Part shown: piece after piece, positions 16,054-41,922 of the stretch | Layout: each line of letters opens with the position of its first letter | Position numbering within the stretch: position 1 is the stretch's first letter | Source of the DNA: a virus | Virus record (IMG/VR): IMGVR_UViG_3300012920_000072 | Span: 1-45,811 of that record | Length of the DNA stretch: 45,811 nt | Direction: 5' to 3' (one strand) | Position numbers and translations under genes: made by a program | The notes under the pieces: generated by a model | What the model saw: only the letters and a program-made list of their open reading frames with translations | Database searches by the model: none | What the model was told of the DNA's origin: nothing

Positions 16054-16063
16054 GATATATAAA
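16054..16063 (+). promoter_or_regulatory. Late-type promoter box GATATATAAA overlapping TATAAATA
   Basis: The box ends 38 nt before the ATG at 16102, the longest spacing of the eight. Its 3' part also spells the T4 late consensus TATAAATA (16058-16065). Confidence 0.65.
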
Positions 16064-20316: not shown

Positions 20317-20326
20317 GATATATAGA
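20317..20326 (+). promoter_or_regulatory. Late-type promoter box GATATATAGA
   Basis: A G-variant, two bases after the kinase stop codon and 27 nt before the ATG at 20354. Its presence suggests that the next two genes are expressed with the late genes. Confidence 0.6.
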
Positions 20327-21421: not shown

Positions 21422-24400
21422 ATGAAAAGAATTTTACTACTACTAACTGCGTTTGTCTTTTCAATAGGACTTAACGCACAGCTTATACCTCCGGCTACTT
21501 CTCCGACGCTTCAGTCAATTGAGAAGTCAGTTGATACAAAGGTAAAAACAATTGCAGATAACAGATCAAAAGGCATACTTAAGTCAGGAATTGATAGAGT
21601 ACCTGTTGTGGTTCATATTATTCACCGAGGTGAACCTATTGATTTTAATGACAGAGTTATAGAGCAACCATATGGTGCTAATATATCGTATGACCAGATT
21701 GTATCTTCTATTAATAATCTAAATGAAAGATTTGCTAATACATGGGTAAACTATTGGGAAGATCCCATAGAAGATGTAAACGCAAGACAGTCTCGTTCTG
21801 TTAATTCACAAGTTCAGTTTTCTTTTGCTAAAAGAAACCCAGAAGGAGGACCTACTGACGGTATCATAAGACATAATATTAATAACATTGGCCTAGAAGA
21901 AGCTGAGATTATAAAATTTATGGAAGAAGGTATCAATATATTAGGATATGAAGGAACCGGATCTGATAAGGGTGCTAGCGAGATTGCTATTAAGGAAGCG
22001 GTAGGATGGGATCCTGATAAGTATGTAAATATTTATGTTGTTCCTGAAATAATGGACAATAACTCTACATGTGGAGTTGTGTGGCATTCTACATTCCCTA
22101 ATGAAAGCAATACTCAAGGAGCAAGGGATGGTATTATAATTCAGGCAAATAGAATGGGTTATGGCGCACATACGGGCTCTTTAAAAGGTTTAAATATAGA
22201 TTTAGTACAGGCAATGGGTCAGTATTTAATGCTTTACCCTGTTTGGTATGGAAATATGACATGCGATGACGCAATCGATGCTTATAATGCAGGTCAAGAA
22301 GATCCAACATATTGTGAAACAAACGGAGACCACGTTTGTGATACTGATCCAATTCCATGGGGATGTAACGGAAATTGCATAGAGGATCCATGTGCTACTT
22401 TACAGAATAATCCGATGCCAGCTGGATGGGAAAGTACAACTACAAACTACATGTATCCTTTGGGTAGTAATTTCTGTCCAGATCACTTTACACAGGGTCA
22501 GATTGACAGAATGCAAGCATGCTTAGAAGGACCTAGAAATAGCCTTCTTACTAATAGTGATGTTTTAAATCCTTTAAGTGTATACGATTTAAAGACAGAC
22601 ATAAGTATAGAAAGAACATGCTACGATAATTATAAGCCTACTGTTATAGTTACTAATACTGGATTTAACGATGTAACAAGCTATACCGTTTCAGTAGAGA
22701 TTACGAGTTTAGGAATTTCTATGTCATTTGATGAAAATGATTTAGGTCCTATACTAACAGGAACGACTTTAAACATCCCATTTCCTGAGTTAGTAATTCC
22801 AAATAATGGATTTTATAACGTACTTGCAACTGCAAGTATAACGACGCCTGGAATTCTAGAACCATTTATTGAAAATAACGCAAAGACATATCCATTAACA
22901 AAGTACTCCGATGGATTCATAAACATATCAGCAACATATAGGGGTACATCAGGCGCTCCACTATATTCTATTAGAAATACAGATAGTGGAGATCTTGTAT
23001 TGGACACAAAGAAAGTTTTTAATAACATAGCATTTTCAAATAGAGAAGATATTCACGCTAACATCTTTTCTTTTGCAGGATTCCTAGAATATGGTGGACA
23101 GTTAGCCGAAGAATATGGTATTTCTGGAAATATAGCACCAAATGTAACTTATTGGGTAGGAAATTCAGGTCCAGTAGATAAGCTTCCATATAATAAAGTT
23201 ACAGCAAGATACTATCTACCGCCCGGCAACTATGCAATTGCAATGTCTGCTAATAGAGTGACTTCAAATAGCGGTCTTTTTAGTATATTCTCAACATATG
23301 GATGCGATCCAGCAACAGATGGTACTGGATGTGAGCTAACCGTAGATGCATTAAGCAATCTTTTAACAGAACTAGATAGGTTGTATACTTTAGATGAATA
23401 TTCTGGTCTTGATCCAGCAACAGGATCAAACCCATATGAATATTCTGCTGAATATGTAGAAATACCGTTTACTGTAGTAAATAACAATAACTATTCAGAA
23501 TCATGTTGCGTAGATTCTAATAACGATGGTATCTGCGACGGGTTTAATTTAGACGAACTAGATCCTAGCATTACTATTGTTAAAGATCCTAATCCACAGC
23601 CAACATCTCTTACCATGGGTGCCGTAGTTGATCGGGAAGGGGTTTCTCAGTTACTAGATGTTGAATTTCAGCTAGCAACCGATCCTGCATTTACAAATTT
23701 AATAGCTACTGAGTTAGTACCATATTCACAGGTAAATGAAGAGTACTTTCTTTTAAAGAAAGAAATATCTGTTGAAATAACAGGACTCACCGAGGATACA
23801 CAGTACTATGGTAGAGTTCGCATAAGCGATAGAGGCGAAAATTATTACAGTTCCGTTATTGCAGAAAGAACTACGGTTGACGCATGCGGTGGAGCATCTT
23901 CTATAACCTTTAACGGAAGAGACTATCCCCTTGTTACTATAGGTAATCAGTGTTGGTTTGCAAAGAACCTACAAAGTGATAGATTAGCTGCTAGCGCAGG
24001 AGGAACAGCTCTAACAGATGGAACTCTTGCATTAGATTGGTGGACAGCGTTAGGAAACGGGGGTACTCCTGCATTTGCAGCAGTAGATGGACTAAATAAT
24101 ACTCAATTATGGGACAATGGATATGGTTATTTTTATAACGTTACTGCTGCTATGACTAACGGATTGTGTCCTGATGGATTTAGAGTTCCTTATAATGCGG
24201 ACTGGATGCAGCTTGATACTGCTTTAGGACTTATTAAAACCGGAACAAAATTAATGATAGAGTCAAGAGGAGGAACCAACTCTACTGGATTTAGCGACGT
24301 TCTTGCAGGAAGAAGATATGCAGCAGGCGGATCAACTGTGATTAATAATCCAGCGACCGGTACCGTAAGTGATAATAACCAAGGCGGATACAGCGTATTC

Positions 24401-25585
24401 TGGACTCAAGATCCTTTTATTCTTTCACAGCCATTAGGTAACTGGACTTCTGCAGATTCAGCATATGGATTTAAAGACTTTGAAGGATTAGGAGCTTCAG
24501 TAAATGGAGAATATTATGGAAATTACATGCATTTTGAAAACCTATGGTATTACAATGGATATGGTAATAGCGGCGGATATAGCGTTAGATGTATGAAAGG
24601 CGGAATTGGAGATAATGGCGTTCCACAAGTAGTAGATGTATGTACAAAGTATGCTACTTATGTAGATAATCCAAATGGAACTGGTCAAATTCAAAAAAAA
24701 TATTGCAACTATAATCCAGCAGGTACAGAATTTAATGAATCTGGATGTAGCTTTCTAGATGAATGCGGTGTTTGCGGAGGAGAAGGAATTCCAGATGGAT
24801 TCTGCAATTGTGAAGGAGAAGTACTAGATGCAGTAGGCGTATGTGGTGGACCTTGTCCGCAGGACGCTGACGGCGACGGCATATGCGACGTTGTATTTAG
24901 AGAAACTGGCGGAGATGAGTCTCTTTGTGACTATGAATACTCAATAAATTACCGCGGAGTCGATTACGCAATCGGTGGTTATGGAGGTAACTGTTGGTTC
25001 TTAGATAACCTAAGAACAAATCAATGGAGTGACGGGTCGTTTATAACATCATCTGCTGCTGGATCTTCATGGGCAGCTAATTCTGAGGCAGAATTATCGA
25101 TCGTTAATACTAGATCTGATTTAAGTCCACAAGATAGAGACCTTTACGGTTACTTGTATAACTGGTACGCTGTAAATGATTCTAAGGGACTATGTCCATC
25201 TGGATGGCATGTTTCTTCAGAAGATGATTGGGAAGGATTAGAAAGATCTTTGGGCATGCCTGAAAATGAAATAATTAGAAACTCTATACGGGGTGAAGAA
25301 AGCGGATGTGGTCAGGTTCTTAGAACAGGTGCAATTGAGTTTAATTCTAAGCCGGCTGGCATAATTACAGGAGATGACGGTAAACTTAGAGGAAGCGGCT
25401 TAGAAGCATACTACTGGACTTCAACACCATGGAACACAATTAAGCTACAGTATCAAAATAACGCGTATCACAGAGCAATACTAGGTCAAAATACAACTGA
25501 TGGTATAGTTAGATATAATCACAGCTGGGGTACTTCTGGAAGTAAGAAGCATGGATTGAGCGTTAGATGTGTAAAGAATAAATAA
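21422..25585 (+). CDS. Giant exported protein: inactive pappalysin-like domain plus two FISUMP domains
   Basis: The 1387-residue protein starts with a Sec signal peptide (MKRILLLLTA..., cleavage before Gln20). Residues about 55-385 follow the M43 pappalysin metalloprotease fold: VPVVVHIIHRG, YVNIYVVPEI, GDHVCDTDP and the closing FTQGQIDRM. The zinc motif HExxHxxGxxH is replaced by QAMGQYLMLYP (from Q263), so all ligands and the catalytic Glu are lost. A CARDB-like beta domain (about 395-485) follows. The first FISUMP domain starts near residue 825 (GNQCWFAKNL ... GYSVRCMK). A Cys-rich linker follows (DECGVCGGEG, DGDGICD; about 1105-1160). The second FISUMP domain spans 1170-1387 and ends GLSVRCVKNK. 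It is the first of five paralogues. No T9SS sorting domain or lipobox is apparent. Likely an envelope or surface binding protein. Confidence 0.9.
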   Translation: MKRILLLLTAFVFSIGLNAQLIPPATSPTLQSIEKSVDTKVKTIADNRSKGILKSGIDRVPVVVHIIHRGEPIDFNDRVIEQPYGANISYDQIVSSINNLNERFANTWVNYWEDPIEDVNARQSRSVNSQVQFSFAKRNPEGGPTDGIIRHNINNIGLEEAEIIKFMEEGINILGYEGTGSDKGASEIAIKEAVGWDPDKYVNIYVVPEIMDNNSTCGVVWHSTFPNESNTQGARDGIIIQANRMGYGAHTGSLKGLNIDLVQAMGQYLMLYPVWYGNMTCDDAIDAYNAGQEDPTYCETNGDHVCDTDPIPWGCNGNCIEDPCATLQNNPMPAGWESTTTNYMYPLGSNFCPDHFTQGQIDRMQACLEGPRNSLLTNSDVLNPLSVYDLKTDISIERTCYDNYKPTVIVTNTGFNDVTSYTVSVEITSLGISMSFDENDLGPILTGTTLNIPFPELVIPNNGFYNVLATASITTPGILEPFIENNAKTYPLTKYSDGFINISATYRGTSGAPLYSIRNTDSGDLVLDTKKVFNNIAFSNREDIHANIFSFAGFLEYGGQLAEEYGISGNIAPNVTYWVGNSGPVDKLPYNKVTARYYLPPGNYAIAMSANRVTSNSGLFSIFSTYGCDPATDGTGCELTVDALSNLLTELDRLYTLDEYSGLDPATGSNPYEYSAEYVEIPFTVVNNNNYSESCCVDSNNDGICDGFNLDELDPSITIVKDPNPQPTSLTMGAVVDREGVSQLLDVEFQLATDPAFTNLIATELVPYSQVNEEYFLLKKEISVEITGLTEDTQYYGRVRISDRGENYYSSVIAERTTVDACGGASSITFNGRDYPLVTIGNQCWFAKNLQSDRLAASAGGTALTDGTLALDWWTALGNGGTPAFAAVDGLNNTQLWDNGYGYFYNVTAAMTNGLCPDGFRVPYNADWMQLDTALGLIKTGTKLMIESRGGTNSTGFSDVLAGRRYAAGGSTVINNPATGTVSDNNQGGYSVFWTQDPFILSQPLGNWTSADSAYGFKDFEGLGASVNGEYYGNYMHFENLWYYNGYGNSGGYSVRCMKGGIGDNGVPQVVDVCTKYATYVDNPNGTGQIQKKYCNYNPAGTEFNESGCSFLDECGVCGGEGIPDGFCNCEGEVLDAVGVCGGPCPQDADGDGICDVVFRETGGDESLCDYEYSINYRGVDYAIGGYGGNCWFLDNLRTNQWSDGSFITSSAAGSSWAANSEAELSIVNTRSDLSPQDRDLYGYLYNWYAVNDSKGLCPSGWHVSSEDDWEGLERSLGMPENEIIRNSIRGEESGCGQVLRTGAIEFNSKPAGIITGDDGKLRGSGLEAYYWTSTPWNTIKLQYQNNAYHRAILGQNTTDGIVRYNHSWGTSGSKKHGLSVRCVKNK

Positions 25586-25589
25586 TAAA

Positions 25590-25609
25590 ATCAAATAAAC
25601 AATAAGACT
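25590..25609 (+). promoter_or_regulatory. A-rich leader, second copy
   Basis: ATCAAATAAAC followed by AATAAGACT sits directly before the ATG at 25610, matching the leader at 21399-21421. In the 24-nt gap between the two giant genes there is no separate promoter box, so they are probably one unit. Confidence 0.4.
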
Positions 25610-28600
25610 ATGTTTAAACTTAAGCAACTTTTAGCTCTTTCAGCTGCCATGTTAATGTGGTTATTTGCTGATGCACAGGTTATTCAAAGGCCTAAAAACT
25701 TAGGTAGTATACAGAAGTATGAAAACGCGTTAAAGTCTACTACTGATATAAGAAAAGCAGCCATCGCTGCTGGTACAAAATCAATTCCACAATATAGCGT
25801 GCCTGTTGTAGTTCATGTTCTTCATGATTTTGATGAGGTTGACATGACCTTTAGATATCAACAACAAGAAAGAACAACTAATATTTCTACATCTCAAATT
25901 AGAAACGCTATACAAAATTTGAATGCTAGATTTAGAAATACCTGGGTTCGTAATTGGGATCCAAATGCTAATCCAGAATCAGTAGATATGGGTATTGGAT
26001 TTGAATTGGCTACAGTAGATCCTACGGGTCGTCCTACAAATGGAATTCTTAGATATGATGTAAATAATCTTGATTTCTTAACTGATGCTCAAAAACTAGA
26101 GTTCAGTAAATATGGAATCACATTTGATGGAGCTTCTTCTAATTCAGAAAATGCACTATTACAAGTTGGAACCCGAGGTGTTGATGTTGGACTTTTCCAA
26201 AATGAATTTAACTGGGATCCAAACTATTATCTTAACATATACATTATTCCAGAAGTTAACGATAGTAATGGCCAGCTTTGCGGAAATACTTATACCGTTA
26301 TTAATGGTCCGTATTCCGAAGCTTCGGCAACAAGACCGCAGAATGAAAGTATAGTAATGCAGTCTAACGCATTTGTATATGGCGGTTTTGCAGAGGGAGG
26401 TTTTATAAGGTATAATCTACCGTTAACGCAAGCAGTAGGTTGGTGGGTAGGCCTTTTACCTACATACTACAACACAACTGATTGTGCAGGAGAAGATGAC
26501 CCATACTGCGTTGAGTACCAGTGGAGAAATCCAGAATTATGTGAACAACTCGGCGACAGAGTTTGCGACACACAGCCAGATCTTAGAACATGTGGGGGTC
26601 AAGCAGGATGTAATGTATCTTTGGAAGCTCAAGGATATACTATGCCAGCTGGTTGGAGAGGATCTAGAGATAACTATATGAACGGAAGTGAATATAACCT
26701 GTACGCAAATCATTTTACAACTGGACAGAAGGAGAGGGCACTTTCTACAATGGAAACCATAAGATCGGAAATGCTTACCGCGGCGACATCTAGAACAGCT
26801 AGAATAAACGTACATGATATTTCTGTAACTCTTTCTATCGATAGATTGGAATACGACGTTTATCGTCCAGTTGCCTTTATAAACAACCAAGGCGGATTTG
26901 ATGAAGAAGATATGAATCTAACAATAGAATTAGTAGGAGGATCTTCTTATAACTTTCCTAGTTCAGTTTTAGGTAAAGCTAGAATTGGAGATGAATTACA
27001 AGTTGTTTTACCTAAGTTTATCATAGAAGACGAAGGTACACATACGTTTAGAGCAACTGTTTCTCTAGAAGGCGGAGCTGTAGATGCTTTTACAGACGAT
27101 AATACATTTGATTATGCCTTTGAAAAAGTACACGATGGAATCGTACAGTGGGATGGAACTTTTGGAAAGTATAATGGATTTGACTTTTGGATAAAGGATA
27201 ACAATATACCAGATGATCCATCTACCTCAGTTTATGACGAATCTATGGTTCTAGATGGAAGAAAGACATATCATAGCGCTACTTATTCTAAAAGAACAAA
27301 AAGGCTTTCTGAAAATTATTTTATAGGATATGGTATTAATTCAGAGGGTGTTATTATAAACCCATATTCAATTGGATTTGTAGGAGGATATGAAGATACT
27401 ACTCTAGTAAACGCAGACGGTGGTCTAACCGCAGATCAAGATTCTTTGCTAAGAGGCGGTTTTGAAGCTAGATATTATCTACCAGAGGGAGATTATACAA
27501 TGTACTATAGAGGATGGTGGGGCGCATTGAATCCCGAGGCAGCATGTATAAAATTTGGAGGTACAAACTGTTCTCAGGTTTGGGATAATTTAGCAGCAGT
27601 AGGACTAGGGTTCGGCCTTACTGGTAAGCCATTTTATAGAGACTTTAATAATGACACTCTTTTTGATTACCGAAGCTCATGTACTACTGGAGATTGTTTA
27701 GTTGAAGCTAAAGTAAACGGCGAGTCAGTATTTAATGCTAACTATTCATATCAACCAGAATATGGATATACAGGAGTTCAGCCGCCTAATACATATCCTT
27801 TTACCAGAATGGAACTATCTGATCCTAATGACCCTAGCAGTACGCTAGTAGAAGTACAATATGGAGATCAGCCTTGCTGGAATCCAGGAGTATACAACTA
27901 TAGTCGTATTGGAAACGACGGAAACCCACTTATTGGAGCCCCTATAGGATGTATTGCTAACTGGCATTATGACAGCGTGCAGTTTACAGTTACAGGTTTA
28001 GAAAATATAAGTGAAGTTACTTGTAACGATAATAATGGTGATGGTATGTGTGACGGTTACGATCCAGAAGAGTTTGTCGCAGCCGTACTTACACTAGAAG
28101 ATATTAAAGCAACTATGCATACTTTAAACCTTAGAGCTAGGGCGGTAAGTCAAGGTTTAACTCGAATAGACTCAGCTGGTTTTGAGTTAGCAACTGATAT
28201 TGCTTTCCAAAACATAGTTGTAGATACTACTAGGGCTTATAACTTTGTAAGCGATACTTATTTCCCATATAAGCCTTACTTTGATGCAACTATAGGTGGA
28301 CTAACTCCTAATACTACATATTATTATAGAGCATTTATTGTTGATAGGGGTGAAAGAGTGTATGGATTTCCAAAACAAACTGCAACCAATGCAAGCGAAT
28401 GTCCTTCAGAAACAATCGTGTATAATGGCATAACTTATGATCTCGTTAGCGTTGGAAATCAGTGTTGGTTTAATGAGGACCTTAAAACTCTTGAAGATAA
28501 CCAAGGAAACCTTCTTACTGATGTAACAGTTCATGATGGAGTTTCCTCAGTAGGTGTTCAAAATGGATATACTGCATATGGAATTCACGTTCCAGGTGGG

Positions 28601-30646
28601 ACTCCAGGCGACTATATACTTTCTCCATATTTAACACCAACATACAATCCTGATAAGTTGGATCAGGACGAAAGGAGAGACTTTTTTGAACCATTAGATA
28701 GTTTGACGGTTTATGCTAATTACAATAATGAACAGATTGTTTTTAACCAAATAGGTATTACACAATCAACATTTGAGAGCGAAGCAGTTAAAAAAGGACA
28801 CTTGTATAATTATCACGCAGCAAGAAATGAAGCAATATGTCCTGTTGGATTTAGAGTTCCTAGCGCAGCTGATTGGCAGGAATTAGAGGATTATCTAGAT
28901 CCTAATGCAACTGCTAAAATAGGTTTAGCTTCAGGTGCCGTGAATAGTGGTCTTGTAATGTTCCCTGCTGGAGTTTCTCTTAGATCTTTTATTGATCCGT
29001 TCCAACAGGATGACATTTTTTGCTGTGACTTGCTTAATTGGTGGGCTAAGTCAAGATGGGTTAACGAAGATGTTGCAGTATGGAACGACGGTAAACAAGC
29101 CGATGAACCAGAGCCAAACTTTAACGTATATCCATTTGACGGTTCTGTAAACTTTGATCCTCTAAACGACGGAAGATTCCCAACTCTTCAGATACCACAT
29201 CTTAGATTCAAAAATACAGGATGGGGATCAAATAATACTACATATGACTACGGCAGCTTTGGTCTAGGAGAAGATGAATCAGGTTATCTCTTTTTCAATC
29301 ACAACGGTATGATGCCTATACGCTGTGTTGCTACAGGTACCCCATACGTAAATGCAACTTCTGGATGTACAAATCCAGAGGCGTGTAACTATGACCAGGC
29401 AGCGTATCCAAATAACCCAGATGCATTTGAATGCATATTTAGAGATGAATGTGGCGTTTGTGATGGAGAAGGTATTCCAATAGGATTCTGTGACTGTCAA
29501 GGTAATGTAGAAGATGCATTGGGTATATGTGGAGGTACATGTCTATCTGATCTAAATAACAACTTAATATGTGATGTAGATGAGCTTAGATTTAGTCCAG
29601 CTTGCGGTAACGAGGCAGCAATAGATTACTTAGGAGACACATATACTGTTACTGGAATTGGAGATCAGTGCTGGTTTGTCGATAACTTAAATGCAACTAC
29701 ATTTAACTCAACCACGGGATACCAGCCAATAACTGAAATTACAGATAATGATGTATGGAAAGATTTAGAGTCACCTGCATATTCTACATATGATAATGAC
29801 CAAATATACGCTACGGCATATGGTCGCCTTTACAATTGGTATGCAGTAGAAACCGGAAATCTTTGTCCTGTTGGTTGGAGAGTTCCATCGGATGCTGATT
29901 GGAAAGATCTTGAAGATGCATTGGGTGTAACTGATGACCAAATTGTTAGAAAGGGTAACAGAGGAGAAGATGTAGCCGCTGGTGACATGCTTAGACAAAA
30001 CGTAGGTTTAACGTTCTTTACTTCTGTTCCAGGAGGTATAAGACTTTCAACAGATGGTTCATTTAGACAATTTGGCGATCATGCTTACTACTGGACTTCA
30101 ACTGATGCCGGCAACCCATTTTCTTCTAGAAAAAATAATGCTTATCACAGAGGCATTGCCCCGCAATCTATATCAGATGGTATTTACAGATATTCAGATA
30201 GCTGGGGAACTTCTAACTCCAAGCAACACGGCTTAAGTGTTAGATGTGTGAGAGACGCAGAAATTGAAAACCCATCACTAAGTATAGCTATAGGTACTAG
30301 AGGCAGTAATCCTACTTATGGCGCTAACGAGTTTACAATTTATGCAAGGTATGGAAAATATGTCGTAAATGGAACTGAAGAAAGCCCATCTATAAGCTTG
30401 ACAAGAGGAGAAACATATACGTTTAACATCTCAGCGCCTGGGCATCCATTTAGATTGTCTAGACTTGATCCTGGATCTGAAGGAGGATATGAAGAATATA
30501 CTTCTGGCGTAAATAAGGGCACTTATAATAGTTCAACTGGAACTGGTGCAATTACATTTACAGTTCCTGCAAATGCACCTAGCGTGATGTACTATGAGTG
30601 TGAATTGCACCCAGGTATGAGAGGAACAATAAACATTTCTGACTAA
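25610..30646 (+). CDS. Giant exported protein: inactive pappalysin-like domain, two FISUMP domains, cupredoxin-like C-terminus
   Basis: The 1678-residue protein has a signal peptide cleaved before Gln23 (LFADAQ). The pappalysin-like domain keeps VPVVVHVLHDF, YLNIYIIPEV, GDRVCDTQPD and FTTGQKERA, but the zinc motif reads QAVGWWVGLLP (from Q274) and cannot bind zinc. A CARDB-like domain follows, then FISUMP 1 (about 935-1245, GNQCWFNEDL to MPIRCVATG), a Cys-rich repeat of the GCTNPEACNYD type with DECGVCDGEG, and FISUMP 2 (about 1335-1550, GDQCWFVDNL to GLSVRCVRD). The last 110 residues form a cupredoxin-like domain with APGHPFRLS, and MYYECELHPGM near the end, so a type-1 copper ligand set (His...Cys-x2-His-x2-Met) is present. 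A terminator follows the gene. Confidence 0.9.
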   Translation: MFKLKQLLALSAAMLMWLFADAQVIQRPKNLGSIQKYENALKSTTDIRKAAIAAGTKSIPQYSVPVVVHVLHDFDEVDMTFRYQQQERTTNISTSQIRNAIQNLNARFRNTWVRNWDPNANPESVDMGIGFELATVDPTGRPTNGILRYDVNNLDFLTDAQKLEFSKYGITFDGASSNSENALLQVGTRGVDVGLFQNEFNWDPNYYLNIYIIPEVNDSNGQLCGNTYTVINGPYSEASATRPQNESIVMQSNAFVYGGFAEGGFIRYNLPLTQAVGWWVGLLPTYYNTTDCAGEDDPYCVEYQWRNPELCEQLGDRVCDTQPDLRTCGGQAGCNVSLEAQGYTMPAGWRGSRDNYMNGSEYNLYANHFTTGQKERALSTMETIRSEMLTAATSRTARINVHDISVTLSIDRLEYDVYRPVAFINNQGGFDEEDMNLTIELVGGSSYNFPSSVLGKARIGDELQVVLPKFIIEDEGTHTFRATVSLEGGAVDAFTDDNTFDYAFEKVHDGIVQWDGTFGKYNGFDFWIKDNNIPDDPSTSVYDESMVLDGRKTYHSATYSKRTKRLSENYFIGYGINSEGVIINPYSIGFVGGYEDTTLVNADGGLTADQDSLLRGGFEARYYLPEGDYTMYYRGWWGALNPEAACIKFGGTNCSQVWDNLAAVGLGFGLTGKPFYRDFNNDTLFDYRSSCTTGDCLVEAKVNGESVFNANYSYQPEYGYTGVQPPNTYPFTRMELSDPNDPSSTLVEVQYGDQPCWNPGVYNYSRIGNDGNPLIGAPIGCIANWHYDSVQFTVTGLENISEVTCNDNNGDGMCDGYDPEEFVAAVLTLEDIKATMHTLNLRARAVSQGLTRIDSAGFELATDIAFQNIVVDTTRAYNFVSDTYFPYKPYFDATIGGLTPNTTYYYRAFIVDRGERVYGFPKQTATNASECPSETIVYNGITYDLVSVGNQCWFNEDLKTLEDNQGNLLTDVTVHDGVSSVGVQNGYTAYGIHVPGGTPGDYILSPYLTPTYNPDKLDQDERRDFFEPLDSLTVYANYNNEQIVFNQIGITQSTFESEAVKKGHLYNYHAARNEAICPVGFRVPSAADWQELEDYLDPNATAKIGLASGAVNSGLVMFPAGVSLRSFIDPFQQDDIFCCDLLNWWAKSRWVNEDVAVWNDGKQADEPEPNFNVYPFDGSVNFDPLNDGRFPTLQIPHLRFKNTGWGSNNTTYDYGSFGLGEDESGYLFFNHNGMMPIRCVATGTPYVNATSGCTNPEACNYDQAAYPNNPDAFECIFRDECGVCDGEGIPIGFCDCQGNVEDALGICGGTCLSDLNNNLICDVDELRFSPACGNEAAIDYLGDTYTVTGIGDQCWFVDNLNATTFNSTTGYQPITEITDNDVWKDLESPAYSTYDNDQIYATAYGRLYNWYAVETGNLCPVGWRVPSDADWKDLEDALGVTDDQIVRKGNRGEDVAAGDMLRQNVGLTFFTSVPGGIRLSTDGSFRQFGDHAYYWTSTDAGNPFSSRKNNAYHRGIAPQSISDGIYRYSDSWGTSNSKQHGLSVRCVRDAEIENPSLSIAIGTRGSNPTYGANEFTIYARYGKYVVNGTEESPSISLTRGETYTFNISAPGHPFRLSRLDPGSEGGYEEYTSGVNKGTYNSSTGTGAITFTVPANAPSVMYYECELHPGMRGTINISD

Positions 30647-30666
30647 TTACAACTATGAAAATAAGG

Positions 30667-30694
30667 AAAGGGCCACTGGAAAGTGGCCCTTTTT
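30667..30694 (+). terminator. Intrinsic terminator between the second and third giant genes
   Basis: A perfect stem GGGCCACT / AGTGGCCC, extended by three A-T pairs, closes a GGAA loop and runs into five T residues. It ends the unit that starts at 21422. Confidence 0.92.
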
Positions 30695-30699
30695 CATTT

Positions 30700-30709
30700 G
30701 ATATATAAA
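30700..30709 (+). promoter_or_regulatory. Late-type promoter box GATATATAAA
   Basis: An exact copy directly after the terminator and 30 nt before the ATG of the 2333-residue gene. It shows that the exported-protein cluster is at least partly under the same control as the virion genes. Confidence 0.65.
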
Positions 30710-30739
30710 CCAGATAAATTTAATTAAACGTGTTTAATA

Positions 30740-33700: not shown

Positions 33701-36700
33701 GTGGTTAGTATTGGAGATCAATGTTGGTTTGCTAGAGACTTGGCAACTAATCAATTTGCTAATGGAGATCCAATACAAAGCGGTTCTTCTACTTCACATC
33801 CTAGGGATTGGGCCGATGATTGGATTGAAACGATGGATAATGACCCAACTGTTCCACTTCAAGTTACTCCAAGGCCTAGATATAATGGAGATGACGTCTC
33901 TGATAGAGGTAGCTTGTATAATTACGCTGCGATTCAAGATGATAGAGGTATATGCCCAATTGGATGGAGAGTCCCTTCTCAACATGACGTAAACGAGCTT
34001 TACGATGAAGTTAGAGAGATTTACGGTACTAATGATCCAAAGGTCCTTAAACACGCGTTATATGACTTTGACCATGAAGACGCTATTTCTCAATTTACAA
34101 ATGGATTAGGATTTAAGTTTAGGGCGGCTAATCACCCTTCATTTAAGTCTTTTGAAAACATACCTAATAGAACGTGGATGACAGATGGGTCTTCTCCATG
34201 GACCGGCAACGAAGCATGGTTACAGTCAAAAGTAGATTCACTATATCCTGGTGAAAACTACCTGATTGACGCACATGCGTTAGGTAGATATGAAAAGCAA
34301 GTAGCTTATAATAGCCAATTCTATATCCCTGGATTTACTGAAGAAACAGCGAATGACATTTCATCTATTGGATTATTAAATAGCATTCATCAACAGTATA
34401 ACTTTACAGGTGGATTAAATCCAGATGCCGCCCTAGATTGGGCAGGACGCTCTGGTGTATCTGTTTATGGAGTGGAACCGTCTAAGCGACGTACTGACCT
34501 TGGTGGGTGTAGTACTCCATTCCCTCCTTTGACTTATGAAGACGCTATTTCTCAAGGATGTGGAGATTGTCCATACCCGCCCACCCGCATGTGTAGATTT
34601 ATGGGAACGGGTAGCTGGCTTGAGCCCTTCGAGAACACAACTTACTGGAGACTTATGGGACTACACCCTAGCGTTCTTGATGCATCTGGAAATCCAGCAC
34701 CAGATACTTCGTATACTAATGTATCTACAGATCCGCATTACATGTATAATGAAAAGTACTTTAGAAAAGCACACGATGAGTATGCTGGATATCCTCTACG
34801 CAAAGGATATGACTTTACAGATGCAATGTGGATTTCAGACTCATATAAAGACCACAGAAAAGAACTATGGTTATTCCATCCTGGTAAAATAGCTAATGAA
34901 GAAACACCTATACAGAGGATTTCAACTAATTCTCCAGTATATTGGGATTCTGTTTACCATCATTATAAAGACCCTGATGTATTAAACGGTCTATTTAATG
35001 AAAAAGTTTTAAGGCCGCTTGAATATGTTGACGAATTTACTTATGGTGAACTACAGAGAATTGGAAGGGTTCAAAAGAGACTGTTTGTATATGATGGATG
35101 GGAGTGGTCAGGATTTCCAAGAGAGCTAACATATAACCCAGATTACTATTACAATCCTAGTTATGTACAATACGAAGGTCTTCCAGGTCCTTCTTCATAT
35201 GACTTTACTTATGTAATGTATAATGACCGTGGTGTTTCTGGTGATAGATTTGGATGGAGAACTAATAATCAAACTCCAATTAATAGAGATGACATAAACA
35301 TGTTTAATGTTCCAGAGGGACAAAACTATATGCCATATTCTAATAACGTAGGCGCAACTCCTACGGATTCTACTGACTGGCGTACTTACTGGAGAAATTC
35401 TAGCTTCAGTGGATCAGCAGCTAACACATGGGCTCAGGCTCCTAAGCTATCAGATGGAGTTGATGGTCATTACCTATCAAACGATGAACAGGCTATAGCA
35501 GAGTCTGCATTTATGGGACTAAGAACAAGATGTGTTACTGGTGGAACCTCAGTTCCAGATATAAACCTAAATCAGGGAACTCTACACAGTAGAAAGTGTA
35601 CGTTTGCTGATACTTTAAAATGGGGATATAACGCAGGTTTAACATATAACCCAGGACAGGCAAATGAAGTTACTGTTCAGGGAAGCCCTTCACATCTTCC
35701 ATTTGGTGGTGTATTCACGTACGAAGAAGGTACTGAAACTTTTGTAACTTCTCAGGGACAAACGCGTACAGTATTGGGTAAAAATACTAGGGACATTATT
35801 GATGAAGATTTTGGTTTTTCTGGATGGTATTTTAGTAGTCCACCTAGTGAGTTTTCGGACCAATCTCAACGTGTACAGTGTCTATCTTGGAATACACCAT
35901 GTAACTTTAACTTAGCACTTCAAGAAGAGCCTGTTGATTCAGAAGGATTTGAACTAGATATTCTAAGAGACAACGACGTCTTCATCGCTGACGCATGTGG
36001 AGATTGTGCAGAATTATCAGAGTTCTTTACTAATATTGAACAAGGTTATTGCGACTGTGATGGTAATACAGTAGATGCATTAGGTATCTGTGGTGGAGAT
36101 TGTGAATCAGATGAAAACGATAATGCGATATGTGACTTTATAGAATCTACATATCAAGAGGGATGTGGTGATATAACTTCAGTTAATTATAATGGACACG
36201 AATATGACGTTGTAAATCTAGGTTCTCAATGTTGGTTTGCAGAAAATCTAAGAACCCAGTTATTTAGAGATGGTGAATTTATACCAGAGGTACAAGTTGC
36301 TTCTTCTTGGACTGGCCTAGAAACGCCAGCTAGGGCGGCATATGAAAACCTAAGTTCTAATTTTGAAGACTACGGATGGCTATACAACTGGTACGCTGTA
36401 GAAACTGGAAAATTATGTCCAGATGGATGGCATGTTCCTTCAGATGACGATTGGAAGGATCTTGAAAGAATTCTAGGCATGAGTGAAAATGAGGTAATTC
36501 GTATGTCATTTAGAGGAACCGAAGAATTAATAGGTTCTCGTGTTAAGCCAGGTGGACTTACTTCGTTTAACTTAGAACCAGGTGGCCTAAGAGTAGGACG
36601 TTCTGGTCTATTTAAAGAAGGAGAAGAAGGAGGATACTTCTGGACTTCTACCCCATCAAATGACAGAAGAGCTTCTAGAAAAGGAACAGCTATACATAGA

Positions 36701-37741
36701 GCGGTTGATGATAACTCTACTGGTATTGCAAGATATTCTGATAGTTGGTCAACTGCTAAGACCATGAAGCATGGATTAAGTGTTAGATGTCTAATAGATA
36801 AAGAAACAGAAGTTGAAACAAGTACTAATAGTAATTTTAATGTCGGAAGCGGTAGTTCTTCAGGCTATTCAGGAAGTAGCGGATCATCTGGCTCTTCAGG
36901 AAGTAGCGGATCATCTGGTTCAAGTGGAGGTACAGATCCAGTATTTTCATGTTCTAACGCAGTATTTAATATGCCAGCAACTACTACAGATCAAGTAGGA
37001 CAGCCTTCTGCTAACTTTGCGTCTGTTTCTCAGGGAACTATAATAAGCGTTTCACCTTCAACGATTCAAGCAGGAAACACTACTTATACCGCATCAATAC
37101 GAATTCCATCTGGATTCCAAAATGCAGGCGGTACATTAAATTGTAGCGACGCATCTAACGGTACAACTACAGTACAAGATCCAGTATTTTCATGTTCTAA
37201 TGCAGGATTTAATATGCCAGCAACTACTACGGATCAAGTAGGACAGCCTTCTGCTAACTTTGCGTCTGTTTCTCAAGGAACTATACTAAGCGTTTCACCT
37301 TCAACGATTCAAGCGGGAAACACTACTTATACCGCATCAATACAGATTCCATCTGGATTCCAAAATGCAGGCGGTACACTAAACTGTACTGACGTGTCTA
37401 ACGGAACGACTACAGGAAGCAATACATTTTCAGTTACTTATCAATCTGGAAAGTATGTTATGAACGGAGTTGGTGGTAGCCCGACTATATCACTAACTAG
37501 AGGACAAACGTATACCTTTAACATATCTGCACCTGGCCATCCATTTAGATTTTCTACACTTAACACGGGATACGGAGGTGGATACATAGAATACACATCA
37601 GGGGTAAATGCTAGCGGTTATAATAGCTCAACTGGAACGGGCGTAATTACATTTACAGTTCCTTCAAATGCACCTAGTACAATGTATTACGAGTGTGAAA
37701 TACACTCAAGTATGATAGGAACAATAAACGTTTCTAATTAA
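30740..37741 (+). CDS. Giant exported protein (2333 aa): inactive pappalysin-like domain, FISUMP domains, Ser-Gly linker, tandem repeat, cupredoxin-like tip
   Basis: This is the largest gene in the window. The signal peptide is cleaved before Gln22 (STVYSQ). The pappalysin-like domain keeps IPVVVHIAHKGG, YLNIYLSSEI, GDGVADTPPN, NYMDG and FTPGQVDRL; the zinc motif is replaced by KSTAGLFGLLP (from K302). A CARDB-like domain and a long unique region follow. FISUMP 1 begins near residue 979 (GDQCWFARDL) and is expanded by insertions to about 1600. A Cys-rich DxDGxxxD-like linker leads to FISUMP 2 (about 1814-2020, GSQCWFAENL to GLSVRCLID). Next come a Ser-Gly linker (about 2036-2063), two copies of an 81-residue repeat, and a C-terminal cupredoxin-like domain with APGHPF and YYECEIHSSM, again His/Cys/His/Met. 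The order suggests an extended rod with a distal beta domain. Confidence 0.9.
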   Translation: MGKLKYFLTAIACVLFSTVYSQGIFIDGQSAPNPFSAELAQINETVANRIAVKQASKRGLPGRSFEANDVWTIPVVVHIAHKGGPIDFDLTENTEDEALRLGNVSRYQITGALDALSERFRARVAAPIREENDLSIYTSGPITEFDDNPFSTDMGIQFQLATIDPNGNPTDGIVRHDMSGSLAFELYGALTGFYQTSPDSLGHIQQSVIDASLAEGYPVTWNQMKDEWAWPSNEYLNIYLSSEIDDNDGSCVNAGVRSIAPTSPVIDDSQDYGFLWVTRLFTSGRFGMQYGSSGSDVSRFIKSTAGLFGLLPVWTGYTDCNSLMIERDSLYGDGVADTPPNVQGCGCGFRCGDPEDFGYANGVPDYRNYMDGTCGSQFTPGQVDRLRAFIEEFWPNFATPNNPKLQQIGYSDLAVETTAERVGYNLYYPTVIVKNLGNQKITNWSVNTVVPGTNISVTLNQSNFGAIPAGEQFNLKLPVFQLTQFKEYEIVSTVSTAGDGYLANNTFTYTFDKVFDAPVTVSSSYFASGTFSREPYLGIVPSEGNELYSEYVGNGLQQVFNRPTEESPYGTQNFLKDPRKGNQGSFSWYNAYWNGGQYGADSLDPRASWSLNAEQLRSDFSLVDWNDSLILEDTYYVTEGPWTIYLRGIKQCLNCFDFWNGIENEAEEQQHSNLADNFFNCYDKDKLPLLFDDGILDSWCNVGLEFNGSSLFYQDQDDILARLHPMCTGSGLDDYNAGTDSVRNLLNDVRNNQSNPLYNDGAEILRLRNEIRDRTSVWQGFCGLQSTGQYFTVAKTPFDPNITASSIETLDDGSIKINPWFKYNVTASQSNPYQAASCLAGGAQGDGVCQNLGATNYNTDLSLGYVYQRNERQLHVTAQINNPGFYNIDSMRFELSTDANFTPGNTEVINLRANHIGNRNMGLLAADQKHGTILPITVGVFEDLAPGTTYYYRVIAGNETIGDQFTTIGYSCEGIGDSITFAGVTYDVVSIGDQCWFARDLATNQFANGDPIQSGSSTSHPRDWADDWIETMDNDPTVPLQVTPRPRYNGDDVSDRGSLYNYAAIQDDRGICPIGWRVPSQHDVNELYDEVREIYGTNDPKVLKHALYDFDHEDAISQFTNGLGFKFRAANHPSFKSFENIPNRTWMTDGSSPWTGNEAWLQSKVDSLYPGENYLIDAHALGRYEKQVAYNSQFYIPGFTEETANDISSIGLLNSIHQQYNFTGGLNPDAALDWAGRSGVSVYGVEPSKRRTDLGGCSTPFPPLTYEDAISQGCGDCPYPPTRMCRFMGTGSWLEPFENTTYWRLMGLHPSVLDASGNPAPDTSYTNVSTDPHYMYNEKYFRKAHDEYAGYPLRKGYDFTDAMWISDSYKDHRKELWLFHPGKIANEETPIQRISTNSPVYWDSVYHHYKDPDVLNGLFNEKVLRPLEYVDEFTYGELQRIGRVQKRLFVYDGWEWSGFPRELTYNPDYYYNPSYVQYEGLPGPSSYDFTYVMYNDRGVSGDRFGWRTNNQTPINRDDINMFNVPEGQNYMPYSNNVGATPTDSTDWRTYWRNSSFSGSAANTWAQAPKLSDGVDGHYLSNDEQAIAESAFMGLRTRCVTGGTSVPDINLNQGTLHSRKCTFADTLKWGYNAGLTYNPGQANEVTVQGSPSHLPFGGVFTYEEGTETFVTSQGQTRTVLGKNTRDIIDEDFGFSGWYFSSPPSEFSDQSQRVQCLSWNTPCNFNLALQEEPVDSEGFELDILRDNDVFIADACGDCAELSEFFTNIEQGYCDCDGNTVDALGICGGDCESDENDNAICDFIESTYQEGCGDITSVNYNGHEYDVVNLGSQCWFAENLRTQLFRDGEFIPEVQVASSWTGLETPARAAYENLSSNFEDYGWLYNWYAVETGKLCPDGWHVPSDDDWKDLERILGMSENEVIRMSFRGTEELIGSRVKPGGLTSFNLEPGGLRVGRSGLFKEGEEGGYFWTSTPSNDRRASRKGTAIHRAVDDNSTGIARYSDSWSTAKTMKHGLSVRCLIDKETEVETSTNSNFNVGSGSSSGYSGSSGSSGSSGSSGSSGSSGGTDPVFSCSNAVFNMPATTTDQVGQPSANFASVSQGTIISVSPSTIQAGNTTYTASIRIPSGFQNAGGTLNCSDASNGTTTVQDPVFSCSNAGFNMPATTTDQVGQPSANFASVSQGTILSVSPSTIQAGNTTYTASIQIPSGFQNAGGTLNCTDVSNGTTTGSNTFSVTYQSGKYVMNGVGGSPTISLTRGQTYTFNISAPGHPFRFSTLNTGYGGGYIEYTSGVNASGYNSSTGTGVITFTVPSNAPSTMYYECEIHSSMIGTINVSN
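36845..36930 (+). repeat. Ser-Gly linker with 27-bp DNA repeat
   Basis: This stretch encodes a flexible run of SSG units. At DNA level a 27-bp unit starting CAGGAAGTAGCGGATCATC occurs at 36870 and again at 36897, differing only near the end. The nearly identical copies make the length prone to slippage. Confidence 0.85.
36935..37415 (+). repeat. Tandem 243-bp (81-residue) repeat
   Basis: Two in-frame copies begin at 36935 and 37178 (both GATCCAGTATTTTCATG) and encode DPVFSCSNA, then QVGQPSANF, IQAGNTTYTASI and GTLNC. They are almost identical in DNA sequence, with a handful of substitutions, so the duplication is recent or kept uniform by recombination. Each unit has two cysteines and looks like a small beta sandwich. 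Confidence 0.92.
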
Positions 37742-37756
37742 TTAGATATAAATTAA

Positions 37757-39823
37757 ATGAGGTTTTTACTTTCGATTATAACGATCCTTTTATGTGGTAG
37801 TTTAATGTCTCAGACCACCGTCCCATGTGGCGTTTTAGATGATAGAACGCCTACCCAGATCGAAGTAGATGAAGCTTTATATAGAAATAATTTAGCTCTC
37901 AAAAGATCTAGCCGAGCTTACAACGATGCTAAAATAATACCAGTAGTAATTAATGTTTTACATTCTGGTAACTATGCATATCCCGGTTATGGTGATTGGC
38001 CTTCTGAAGCAGCTGTTAATTCTATGATGTCTGAATTAAATAACTACTACGCGTCTGGTTTAAATTCTTCATCACAAGTCGATGCACAAAGCGATGCAGG
38101 ATTTACATTTGTTTTAGCTGACAAGGACATAAACGGTAATCCCATGGATGGTTTTAGAGAATATAACCTGCAAGACTATCCAGAGTTTTCTAATTGCATA
38201 TTTAAAACATATAATTATGTTACAGCAAATTGCGATGATCAAATGTCAAGTTTTTTTGGATACGAAAGAGATTTCTATTTAAACATATTCTTTTTGGCAG
38301 TACAGCAAGAATCAAATGGTGGCGTTTATGGGGGCTGGGCTAAATATCCGCCAAGTAGCTATGGTTTATTTATAAACCCGCTCTCAAGTGGATGGGGCCA
38401 AACAGCAACTCATGAGGTTGGTCATTATTTAGGACTTAGACATACTTTTGACCAATACGACGAAGCCATTTGTGCTACTATTAATGAAACAGACTGTGAA
38501 ACACAGGGAGACCGTGTATGTGACACTGGACCTACTATTAGATCTTTTTTATGTGTGAATTTATGTAATAACCCGCTAGAAGATCCAGAAAACTTTATGT
38601 CATATGCTGGCTGTTCTCACCAAAAATTTACAGATGGGCAAATAGAAAGAATGCACGTACAGGCAGAAACATTTAGACAAGATGAAATAGGACATGGCCA
38701 ATTTCTTTATGGAACAACTTCTGGATGTACAGATCCTACAAAGTGTAACTATGATGCTAACGCACTAACAGATGACGGGTCATGTCTTGATAATGATGCG
38801 CTAGGGGTCTGTGGAGGTACTTGCGCAGCAGACGTTGACTCTGATGGCATATGTGATGACGTTGATACATGTCTTACTGGTGAAGATGTTGATAATGATG
38901 GCATATGTGACAGTATAGATCCTTGTATTGGTATTCCTGATTTAGATAATGATGGAATATGCGATCCTGATGATCCATGTGTTGGTACTTTAGATGCATG
39001 TAATGTATGTAACGGCCCAGGAGCTATTTATGAATGTGGATGCGCAGATATTCCAGAAGGAGACTGTGATTGTAATGGAAATCAGTTAGACGCGCTTGGA
39101 GTATGTGGAGGACCGTGTCTAGCAGATCTAGACGGTGATGGCATATGTGATAATGAACAAGCTAATGCATGCGCAGGAATATCAACTGTTTCTTACAATG
39201 GATTAGATTATAGTTTAATTGAGCTCGGTAATCAATGTTGGTTCAATTCTAATTTAGCAACAAATAGATTTAACGACGGGTCTTTTATACAAAAAATAGA
39301 CACACCTGAAGACTGGATGATTCAATCCGGCAATGCGGTTCCTGTAATGGGATATGTCGATCATGATAACGTAACAAATACAGCGACTTATGGCTTCTTG
39401 TATAATTGGTATGCAGTAAACGATTCGCGAGGGCTTTGTCCTACTGGCTATCACGTTCCTACTGATAAAGAATGGATGGAACTTGAAAGATATCTTGGCC
39501 TAGAAGAAAATCTTGTTACTAGAGAGGGCTATGGTTCATCTCCTAGTAACGTTGGCGCTAAGCTAGGAGACGGTGGAAATTCTGGATTTGATTCTAAATA
39601 TGCCGGTCTATTAGTAGAATCAGATGGCTCTCAGAGAGATTTACAAAAAGCAGCATATTTCTGGACGTCTACTGAATATAACAATGTATTTGAAAGCGAA
39701 AGAAATAATGCATGGTTTAGGGCTATTTACAAAAACCTTTCTGGCGTTGGTAGATACAACGAAGCATGGCAGACTGCGAACAATAAGGGTAATGGAATGT
39801 CAGTAAGATGTTTGAAAGACTAA
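37757..39823 (+). CDS. Exported pappalysin-like (M43) metalloprotease with calcium-repeat linker and FISUMP domain
   Basis: The 688-residue protein has a signal peptide cleaved before Gln (SLMSQ). Its protease domain has an intact zinc motif, HEVGHYLGLRH (H219, E220, H223, G226, H229), followed by GDRVCDTGP and the Met-turn ENFMSYAGC with FTDGQIERM. It should therefore be an active metzincin protease. Residues about 318-470 are Cys- and Asp-rich, with GCTDPTKCNYD and several DxDxDGICD repeats like thrombospondin type-3 calcium-binding motifs. The C-terminal 210 residues are one FISUMP domain (GNQCWFNSNL, LCPTGYHVPTDKEW, GMSVRCLKD). It follows the giant gene by 15 bases and precedes its closest paralogue by two, so the three are probably co-transcribed. 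A variant GATATAAATT lies just before its start. Confidence 0.92.
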   Translation: MRFLLSIITILLCGSLMSQTTVPCGVLDDRTPTQIEVDEALYRNNLALKRSSRAYNDAKIIPVVINVLHSGNYAYPGYGDWPSEAAVNSMMSELNNYYASGLNSSSQVDAQSDAGFTFVLADKDINGNPMDGFREYNLQDYPEFSNCIFKTYNYVTANCDDQMSSFFGYERDFYLNIFFLAVQQESNGGVYGGWAKYPPSSYGLFINPLSSGWGQTATHEVGHYLGLRHTFDQYDEAICATINETDCETQGDRVCDTGPTIRSFLCVNLCNNPLEDPENFMSYAGCSHQKFTDGQIERMHVQAETFRQDEIGHGQFLYGTTSGCTDPTKCNYDANALTDDGSCLDNDALGVCGGTCAADVDSDGICDDVDTCLTGEDVDNDGICDSIDPCIGIPDLDNDGICDPDDPCVGTLDACNVCNGPGAIYECGCADIPEGDCDCNGNQLDALGVCGGPCLADLDGDGICDNEQANACAGISTVSYNGLDYSLIELGNQCWFNSNLATNRFNDGSFIQKIDTPEDWMIQSGNAVPVMGYVDHDNVTNTATYGFLYNWYAVNDSRGLCPTGYHVPTDKEWMELERYLGLEENLVTREGYGSSPSNVGAKLGDGGNSGFDSKYAGLLVESDGSQRDLQKAAYFWTSTEYNNVFESERNNAWFRAIYKNLSGVGRYNEAWQTANNKGNGMSVRCLKD

Positions 39824-39825
39824 TA

Positions 39826-41922
39826 ATGAGATATTTAATCACTGGATTACTATTAACTATATTTTCATTTTCTTATTCTCAAGAAGATTTAGGAGAGTGT
39901 GGTTCAATAGATCCTATACATGATTCGGGCATATCTGAAGCTGAAAAGCAGGCTATAATTCAAGGGGAGCAAAGAGCACTTCAAAATTTAAGAAATAGAT
40001 CTAAGGGCCTTGTCACAAAAAGTGGATCGGTTAATCAACAGGTTTATATACCAGTAATTTTTAATTTTGTACTTACAGAAGGAGCTCCAGAATCTTTATG
40101 GTATGACCAGTACGGAAACTATACAAAAACAGAAGAATGGGCTTTAGGAATTTTAGACAACATTAACGAAAGATATTCTACAGGATTATGGGAGTCTACT
40201 ACATATGAAACTGAAATTGACTATGGAAATCAGGGTGCTGATTTTAATGCTATACTTATACCTGGAAATGTAGATATGGACGGAAATCCACACGATTGGA
40301 TACGTGAATTTACGCTTGAAGATAGTTTAGATGTTATGGATCCATTTTACTATAGACCAACACCAGACGATCCTCCTAATTATGCATGGGGTAGTTATTT
40401 AGATCTTGACTCTATTATTCCATATACTTCGCCTTGGCCAGAAAATCCACAAATACAGGCTTTTACAGAAGATGTTAATTATAATAGCGTCACTATGCTA
40501 AATACATTTGCTTATAAGCCTTATGACTATTTAAACATATTTGTTTATGGACCTATATGCTGTGGATTAAGAAATGCAGGAGCAAACTTTCCAATGTCAG
40601 CTACTGAAGATGATATATCTGGACACATTTGGACAGGGCAACATCTATTTTTCGGACCAAATACGTGGAACGGTTTTTATGAGGCGGCATTTATTAATCC
40701 AGATCCGGTGGATTATACTGATATACCAGCACATGAGGTTGCACATTTTTTTAGCTTAGGGCATAATTGGAGTTTTTCATCATGTAGTGCTGCGTATACA
40801 AATTACGCAGAAGGAGATTGCTCAACAACCGGAGATAGAGTATGCGATACTCCACCTACAAAAAGCGATTATCATGATTGTTACTCTACCGACCCTGGCG
40901 ATCATTGTCTAAGTTTTGGAATACCACATAATCCGTCTAATATTATGGACTATACTAGAAGATGCGGTCAAATGCATTTTACACAAGGTCAAGCAGATAA
41001 AGTCAGGGCTAATTTCTTCGATACAGGTACAAATAGATATAGAATTATAGAACGGGGTTATGAAATAGTAGGACATGACGGCGGATGTTTGTCGGATGTT
41101 AATGCATGTAATTATAGTCCAGGAGGGTCCTTAGATGTTCCATGTGAATATATAGATGCTCTAGGAGTGTGCGGCGGTACGTGCGAATCAGATTCAGACG
41201 GTGACGGAATCTGTGACGGTGCAGTAGGTCCTAGTCCATGTCTTGGAATTAATTCTATGTTATACATGGGAATTACTTATGACCTAATTGAAATAGGCGA
41301 TCAATGTTGGTTTGGTTCAAATATAGAACAAAATCTATTACCGCCTGATCCGAATGCTGAAAATCCTAATGTAACGGTTTCTATTCCAATAGCTACATCA
41401 GCTGAAGAGTGGATGTCATATTCTGATAATGAACAACCTGCATGTGCATATCCAGGAGGTTATGATCGAGTAGATTTAAGGGAACCATATGGTCTATTAT
41501 TTAATGCATACGCAATACAGCAACATGATGATATATGTCCTACGGGTTTTCATGTTCCAACTGATGATGACTTTAAAAAATTTGAAAGATATTTAGGCTT
41601 AGAAGAATTTCATATGATTAGAAAGGGAAAAAGAGAATCAGATGAAAATCTAGGCATCAGGCTAACAAAGGGAGGAGATACTGGATTTGAAGCAACTCTT
41701 TCTGGTTTAATAGTTGAGTCTGACGGCTTTCATAAAGATTTTGGATATAAATCATACATTTGGACATCTACTCCTCATAGAAATAGATTTGCTAGTGAAA
41801 GAAACAATATATGGTATAGAAATATTTCTAGAAACAATACGGGTATTGGTAGATATAATGAAGCGTGGCAGACTGCAAACAATAAGGGCAATGGTATGTC
41901 TGTAAGATGCTTAAAAGATTAA
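39826..41922 (+). CDS. Exported pappalysin-like metalloprotease paralogue with FISUMP domain
   Basis: The start is set at the ATG at 39826, which gives a clean signal peptide (MRYLITGLLLTIFSFSYS before Gln); an ATG at 39808 overlaps the previous coding region and adds six residues. The zinc motif is HEVAHFFSLGH (H303, E304, H307, H313): the three His and the Glu are present, but the usual Gly of HExxHxxGxxH is Ser310. GDRVCDTPP, NIMDYTRRC and FTQGQADKV follow as in active pappalysins. A short Cys-rich linker (ALGVCGGTC, DSDGDGICD) leads to a C-terminal FISUMP domain (about 477-698) nearly identical in its last 30 residues to that of the previous gene. Probably an active secreted protease of 698 residues. 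Confidence 0.92.
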   Translation: MRYLITGLLLTIFSFSYSQEDLGECGSIDPIHDSGISEAEKQAIIQGEQRALQNLRNRSKGLVTKSGSVNQQVYIPVIFNFVLTEGAPESLWYDQYGNYTKTEEWALGILDNINERYSTGLWESTTYETEIDYGNQGADFNAILIPGNVDMDGNPHDWIREFTLEDSLDVMDPFYYRPTPDDPPNYAWGSYLDLDSIIPYTSPWPENPQIQAFTEDVNYNSVTMLNTFAYKPYDYLNIFVYGPICCGLRNAGANFPMSATEDDISGHIWTGQHLFFGPNTWNGFYEAAFINPDPVDYTDIPAHEVAHFFSLGHNWSFSSCSAAYTNYAEGDCSTTGDRVCDTPPTKSDYHDCYSTDPGDHCLSFGIPHNPSNIMDYTRRCGQMHFTQGQADKVRANFFDTGTNRYRIIERGYEIVGHDGGCLSDVNACNYSPGGSLDVPCEYIDALGVCGGTCESDSDGDGICDGAVGPSPCLGINSMLYMGITYDLIEIGDQCWFGSNIEQNLLPPDPNAENPNVTVSIPIATSAEEWMSYSDNEQPACAYPGGYDRVDLREPYGLLFNAYAIQQHDDICPTGFHVPTDDDFKKFERYLGLEEFHMIRKGKRESDENLGIRLTKGGDTGFEATLSGLIVESDGFHKDFGYKSYIWTSTPHRNRFASERNNIWYRNISRNNTGIGRYNEAWQTANNKGNGMSVRCLKD

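Follow-up and report, generated by a model that had tools for sequence, protein, structure and literature searches.

To our knowledge, few phage proteins leave the cytoplasm, and these are mostly small. Llp of phage T5 is an example of the phage superinfection-exclusion or receptor-masking proteins, which are small lipoproteins. Cryophage was reported as the unique case of phage-encoded cargo of the type IX secretion system (T9SS) (Bellas et al. 2020, PMC7468147). Here we describe a 45.8-kb piece of a T4-like phage (IMG/VR record IMGVR_UViG_3300012920_000072, positions 1 to 45,811, hereafter the window), an uncultured marine phage with a likely Bacteroidota host. Five adjacent plus-strand open reading frames (ORFs) of the window, named g1 to g5, encode exported proteins that combine an M43 (pappalysin-like) metalloprotease domain with FISUMP domains. 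They extend from 21422 to 41922, that is, over 20.5 kb or 44.8% of the window, in agreement with a first-pass annotation that had reported five consecutive genes of this kind in about 45% of it.

As in Cryophage, a phage of Bacteroidota carries exported surface-type proteins which vary between close genomes (PMC7468147). The cargo of Cryophage, however, carries type A sorting domains and comprises an endoglucanase, a GH39 enzyme and a PA14 protein, whereas the window has a tandem island of M43 protease and pseudoprotease paralogues with no recognised sorting domain. The fold, the HExxHxxGxxH motif and the Met-turn are shared with mirolysin and ulilysin (M43B), and, like mirolysin with its cysteine switch, g4 and g5 have a cysteine not far from the N-terminus of the mature protein. 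The window proteins differ in being phage-encoded and fused to FISUMP, with serine in place of glycine in g5 and without zinc ligands in g1-g3. Similarly to Llp, they would be phage-made envelope proteins blocking reinfection, but they are giant, multidomain and exported, with protease partners. Lastly, g2 and g3 have their C-terminal domain in common with gp9-type tail proteins of marine phages (phrog_677), which are not known with signal peptides or M43 and FISUMP domains. The pseudoprotease nature of g1-g3, the variability of the island and the tail-protein domain of g2 and g3 go beyond the first-pass annotation.

M43 Domains With and Without the Zinc Site

The Pfam profile of M43 was significant for g4 (3.9e-11) and slightly below the cut-off for g1, and it did not call g2, g3 and g5. 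Alignment of the N-terminal ~400 residues showed a common M43 core in g1-g5, with the GDxVxDTxP motif and the Met-turn NxM kept in 5/5. The zinc site HExxHxxGxxH is kept in g4 (HEVGHYLGLRH, Met-turn NFMSY), and the respective site of g5 reads HEVAHFFSLGH (S for G), with NIMDY as the Met-turn. At the aligned position, g1, g2 and g3 have QAMGQYLMLYP, QAVGWWVGLLP and KSTAGLFGLLP, with the three zinc-binding histidines and the catalytic glutamate all lost. By zinc site and Met-turn, g4 and g5 are members of the active M43 enzymes, with catalysis predicted, and g1-g3, which lack the zinc site of that class, are classified as pseudoproteases. The pappalysin-like fold previously assigned to all five proteins is thus upheld by the alignment and by fold comparison of g4 and g1, with the correction that g1-g3 have no protease active site.

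A cysteine near the mature N-terminus is found only in g4 (PCG) and g5 (ECG), and not in g1-g3. In mirolysin, Cys23 of the sequence QRTCG keeps the zymogen latent (PMC8259862). The predicted model of g1 (residues 1-633) matched mirolysin with Z 24.8 over 272 residues (root-mean-square deviation 3.1; Foldseek E 1e-12), and its M43 part is followed by an Ig/CARDB-like domain. The respective comparison for g4, with a model of moderate quality (mean predicted local distance difference test score 67), gave Z 17.6 over 210 residues. The models indicate that the M43 fold is retained in g1 despite the lost zinc site.

In the tree of 31 M43 domains, g1-g3 and their g1-like counterparts in four related phages form one group with support 100/99, which points to a single origin of the dead M43 clade. 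The support is 97/93 for the grouping of g4 with the g4-like genes of the relatives and 100/99 for that of g5 with a gene from G001, the sister phage. The active site is intact in g4, g5, the three G001 genes and the g4-like genes, and lost in g1-g3 and the four g1-like genes. The ratio of nonsynonymous to synonymous substitutions (dN/dS) between two relatives (G020 vs. G024) was 0.07 for the dead M43 part and 0.10 for the tail tube gene, taken on the g1-like genes of these relatives, with no close orthologue found for g1-g3 themselves. Being comparable to that of the tail tube, this value is an indication that the dead domains are maintained and not decaying. The dead lineage therefore seems to be under purifying selection and kept as pseudoproteases.

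FISUMP and Tail-Type Domains

The FISUMP domain (Fib_succ_major, PF09603/TIGR02145) scored above both cut-offs in all of g1-g5. Matches were found in eight places of the window (E 2e-12 to 1.5e-40). The g1-g3 genes have two matches each, of which one is partial in g2 and one in g3, and g4 and g5 have a single match each. In the g4 model, the FISUMP fold is predicted with high confidence in part, but no known fold was recognised for it, because the M43 domain filled the structural match lists. Elsewhere, FISUMP is a target domain of diversity-generating retroelements (DGRs) (PMC4159848). Because the family is a reported DGR target, the modules of g1-g5 are taken as binding modules and, by this analogy, would bind ligands. 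No functional study of FISUMP with phage or lectin was found in the literature. Diversification of the FISUMP copies by a DGR was considered and rejected: no reverse transcriptase (RVT_1) was found in the 43 related contigs, the near-complete G001 included, the mismatches between copies are not adenine-specific, and there is no template repeat.

The last ~110 residues of g2 and g3 form a domain which matches phrog_677 (E 1e-17). It also matches 282 phage records, annotated as gp9 or tail-fibre-like, of which nearly all are cyanophages. It is only this C-terminal domain of g2 and g3 that matches tail proteins. The label "cupredoxin-like" for it was given by inspection only, and for the end of g3 no solved relatives were found by sequence. 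In G001, a domain of the phrog_677 type lies directly after the signal peptide of an 853-aa protein, and the same domain occurs in a collagen-like tail fibre without a signal peptide. A module is thus common to the virion fibres and the exported proteins within one phage. This module may bind the same ligand in both, which would favour receptor masking, or may tether the exported proteins to virions once the cell has lysed. Between the FISUMP and the last domain of g3 (36857-37400), there are a Ser/Gly repeat linker and two near-identical repeats of ~80 residues.

Export of the Proteins

All five proteins (5/5) start with a hydrophobic signal sequence ending in A or S and followed by Q at +1, as judged by eye and with a simple script for hydrophobicity. 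In the case of g5, the longest ORF call begins at 39808 (704 aa), and the start at 39826 (698 aa) gives the best signal peptide. Homologues from seven related contigs likewise have a signal peptide and Q at +1. In two reports, Q at +1 is described as the Q-rule of Bacteroidetes (PMC5837995; PMC10653852). The signal peptides fit this rule, which makes a Bacteroidota host likely. The bacterial relatives nearest to g4 are surface-type proteins of uncultured Flavobacteriales, related mostly via linker repeats and FISUMP.

Profile searches (NCBIfam, Pfam) gave no match in g1-g5 to a T9SS sorting domain of type A (TIGR04183) or type B (TIGR04131), and g1-g5 have no lipobox, both in line with the first-pass annotation. 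An M43 protein of G034 (L270, 16678-19557, minus strand) carries a sorting domain of type B at its end (CHU_C E 1e-15; TIGR04131 35.6 bits, cut-off 35). In G001, a PorP/SprF gene (L112, 7271-8245; TIGR03519 198.6 bits, cut-off 90.6; PF11751 E 2e-50) is located right after three M43-FISUMP genes. PorP/SprF proteins are part of the type IX machinery. In other phages one weak, unannotated match to PorP/SprF was found, and nothing convincing among the cultured ones. The sorting domain and the PorP/SprF gene of the relatives support a tie of the M43 set to type IX secretion.

The export of g1-g5 is well supported by these signals, and we infer their target and purpose. Of the earlier proposal that the system acts in the host envelope or at the cell surface, the part on export stands, through the Q-rule signal peptides of the clade and the T9SS components of relatives, and the roles it listed (receptor masking, exclusion, matrix degradation, decoration) are candidates.

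The Insertion Site in Related Phages

The two genes that border the cluster lie directly side by side, no more than a few bases apart, in ten related contigs (G023, G025, G030, G032, G034, G036, G038, G041, G043, and G046). Four others, whose terminase is about 83% identical, have two genes between these same borders (G019, G020, G022, and G024). The two are a g1-like pseudoprotease of 1287-1421 aa and a g4-like protease of 647-651 aa, and G020 has a single small ORF there in addition. The search for syntenic clusters suggested by the first-pass annotation thus found the same site holding two genes in four phages. The pair of pseudoprotease and protease looks ancestral among the occupied sites, and the copy of the window seems to have grown through duplication (g1 to g3) and the gain of g5. 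Between G020 and G022, nucleotide identity is 96% for the tube and 87% for the terminase vs. 56% for g1 and 67% for g4, an indication that the island genes diverge far faster than their neighbours. From the comparison of these contigs, the cluster is well supported as a variable insertion island of 6-20 kb.

Over positions 143-11964 of the window, the sister phage G001 (149 kb) has a nucleotide identity of 91-96%, after which its contig breaks off within the sheath gene. At the opposite end, the contig begins inside an M43 gene, and three M43-FISUMP genes follow (739, 853, and 708 aa), each with a signal peptide and an intact zinc site. The contig has no copy of its own of the stretch from the 178-aa gene to the sigma gene. 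G034 and G043 have the empty site, yet an M43 protein of 960-969 aa is encoded some kilobases away. In G032, also with an empty site, several secreted proteins stand in a row (L283 reversed, 12036-16061), one of them cohesin-like by eye.

Probable Late Transcription

The sequence GATATATAAA occurs 5 times in the window against 0.4 expected, and 0/100 shuffles reach as many. Its 8-mer GATATATA has 8 copies, all on the plus strand and all 24-48 bp upstream of a gene start, including those of terS, sheath, tube, and g3. The first-pass observation that g3 shares its promoter box with the sheath and terminase genes is therefore confirmed. In G001, the 8-mer is found 32 times on the coding strand and 0 times on the other, and 17 copies precede an ORF by 15-60 bp; these ORFs include tail fibre, capsid-region, and terminase genes. 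Based on this enrichment, the strand specificity and the spacing to gene starts, the box is very probably a clade-wide late promoter. The conserved sigma-like gene next to the island is a candidate for reading it. A hairpin and the box that follows it set g1-g2 apart from g3-g5, and the likely transcripts would run from the 174-aa gene to g2 and from g3 to the phosphoesterase gene.

Possible Roles of the Cluster

These results suggest that the phage remodels the outside of its host cell late in infection. The explanation that we favour, tentatively, is a late-expressed set of exported proteases and pseudoprotease-adhesins which acts on the surfaces of the host or its kin, probably by masking or shaving receptors. 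In such a mechanism, g4 and g5 would be M43 metalloproteases of the zymogen type and g1-g3 their large, catalytically dead paralogues. All would cross the inner membrane by Sec with removal of the signal peptide, and would reach the host surface or the surroundings via T9SS or at lysis. The g1-g3 proteins may serve as adhesive scaffolds, and g4 and g5 may cut back surface proteins. On the infected cell, on debris, and on kin close by, receptors would thereby be masked or shaved. The outcome would be less superinfection and less progeny lost to debris, as with a receptor-destroying enzyme. It is doubtful, though conceivable, that the dead paralogues, as adhesive scaffolds, display the active proteases on the surfaces of host and kin in one complex destroying or masking the phage's own receptor, exported by the Sec and type IX systems of the host, with some phages adding their own PorP/SprF. 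Several points weigh against receptor masking or shaving. The ligand-binding role of FISUMP derives from the DGR-target report and not from structure; reach past the periplasm is inference, as g1-g5 have no recognised sorting domain; the tail-type domain of g2 and g3 fits attachment to virions equally; and among the cultured phages of INPHARED none carries the set, the only FISUMP match being in Microcystis phage Mel-JY01.

The tail-protein domain keeps open the decoration of virions after lysis, where the proteins would be exported in infection, freed at lysis, and joined to tails or capsids, with FISUMP and the cupredoxin-like domain helping to bind and digest surface material of the next host. 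The late box in common with the sheath and tail genes, the largely cyanophage tail proteins matched by the end domain, its presence in the G001 fibre, and a hypervariability typical for receptor-binding proteins agree with this role. We consider it unlikely all the same, as signal peptides are not expected on myovirus tail proteins assembled in the cytoplasm, the G001 fibre with the domain has none, and the baseplate and fibre genes of G001 are separate and located elsewhere. Secreted digestive enzymes and adhesins might instead loosen biofilm, exopolysaccharide, or particle matrix around infected cells and let the progeny disperse. M43 enzymes of Bacteroidota are secreted proteases, the linker repeats and FISUMP are host-like and match Flavobacteriales surface-type proteins, and Cryophage has variable T9SS-tagged hydrolases (PMC7468147), but matrix loosening does not account for the dead paralogues, which are conserved and the largest of the genes, and this role is rather improbable. 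The resemblance of the domain set to Flavobacteriales surface proteins would also fit a chance acquisition of bacterial surface genes, or a chimera from binning or assembly, either of them without a role for the phage. This is very improbable. A chimera, named in the first-pass annotation as what could overturn its claim, is excluded by synteny with 14 related contigs, 10 of them with the empty site and four, as independent contigs, with the site filled; phage genes lie on both sides of the cluster, GC content is 38.1% inside it vs. 38.0% to its left, and the late box and purifying selection are further arguments against this reading.

An island of 6-20 kb with variable content, coding for exported proteases and conserved pseudoproteases, together with the phage-borne PorP/SprF and the type B sorting domain of the relatives, would show that marine Bacteroidota myoviruses systematically use the secretion route of the host to act outside the cell. 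It would also offer defined genes for testing superinfection exclusion or receptor removal.

Coordinates and Other Observations

Besides the cluster (table 1), the window encodes the end of a capsid protein, a clamp loader, an RNase H-like exonuclease, neck, terminase, sheath, and tube proteins, 13 tRNAs, a guanylate kinase, and a sigma factor.

Table 1. Features of the island and its surroundings (positions in the window)
Feature	Position	Strand	Details
g1, exported pseudo-M43 protein, 1387 aa	21422..25585	+	FISUMP x2 (23933-24598, 24980-25576); dead site QAMGQYLMLYP 22208-22240
g2, exported pseudo-M43 protein, 1678 aa	25610..30646	+	FISUMP 28778-28909 (partial), 29657-30253; dead site 26429-26461
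g2 C-terminal tail-type cupredoxin-like domain	about 30290-30643	+	
g3, exported pseudo-M43 protein, 2333 aa	30740..37741	+	FISUMP 33704-34213 (partial), 36212-36793; dead site 31643-31675
g3 end: Ser/Gly linker, repeats, then C-terminal tail-type domain	domain about 37403-37738	+	
g4, exported M43 metalloprotease (predicted), 688 aa	37757..39823	+	HEVGHYLGLRH 38411-38443; candidate cysteine switch 37823-37831; FISUMP 39218-39817
g5, exported M43-type protein, 698 aa	39826..41922	+	HEVAHFFSLGH 40732-40764; candidate cysteine switch 39895-39903; FISUMP 41287-41916; longest ORF 39808-41922
178-aa gene, left border of island	20862..21398	+	
Phosphoesterase gene, right border of island	41926..42441	+	
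Sigma-factor-like gene adjoining island, candidate late sigma factor	42521..43126	+	
GATATATA copies	935, 6036, 8439, 10953, 13939, 16054, 20317, 30700	+	
Late-promoter box GATATATAAA of g3	30700..30709	+	
Late-promoter box GATATATA before 174-aa and 178-aa genes	20317..20324	+	likely serving g1-g2 too
Terminator-like hairpin between g2 and g3	30665..30694	+	

Q at +1 also marks two further exported proteins of the window, one with 166 aa and no family (19345-19845) and the other a DUF1573 protein (43442-43885). An M43 protein without signal peptide in L148 was considered as a virion-type protein and set aside, its context being unproven and its neighbours having no PHROG match. Exported M43 proteases of about 630 aa occur in many other viral contigs (L089-L140, L104). 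In L104, the M43 gene is surrounded by genes for a phage primase and ribonucleotide reductase. By eye, the ends of the proteins look like a short type A sorting signal.

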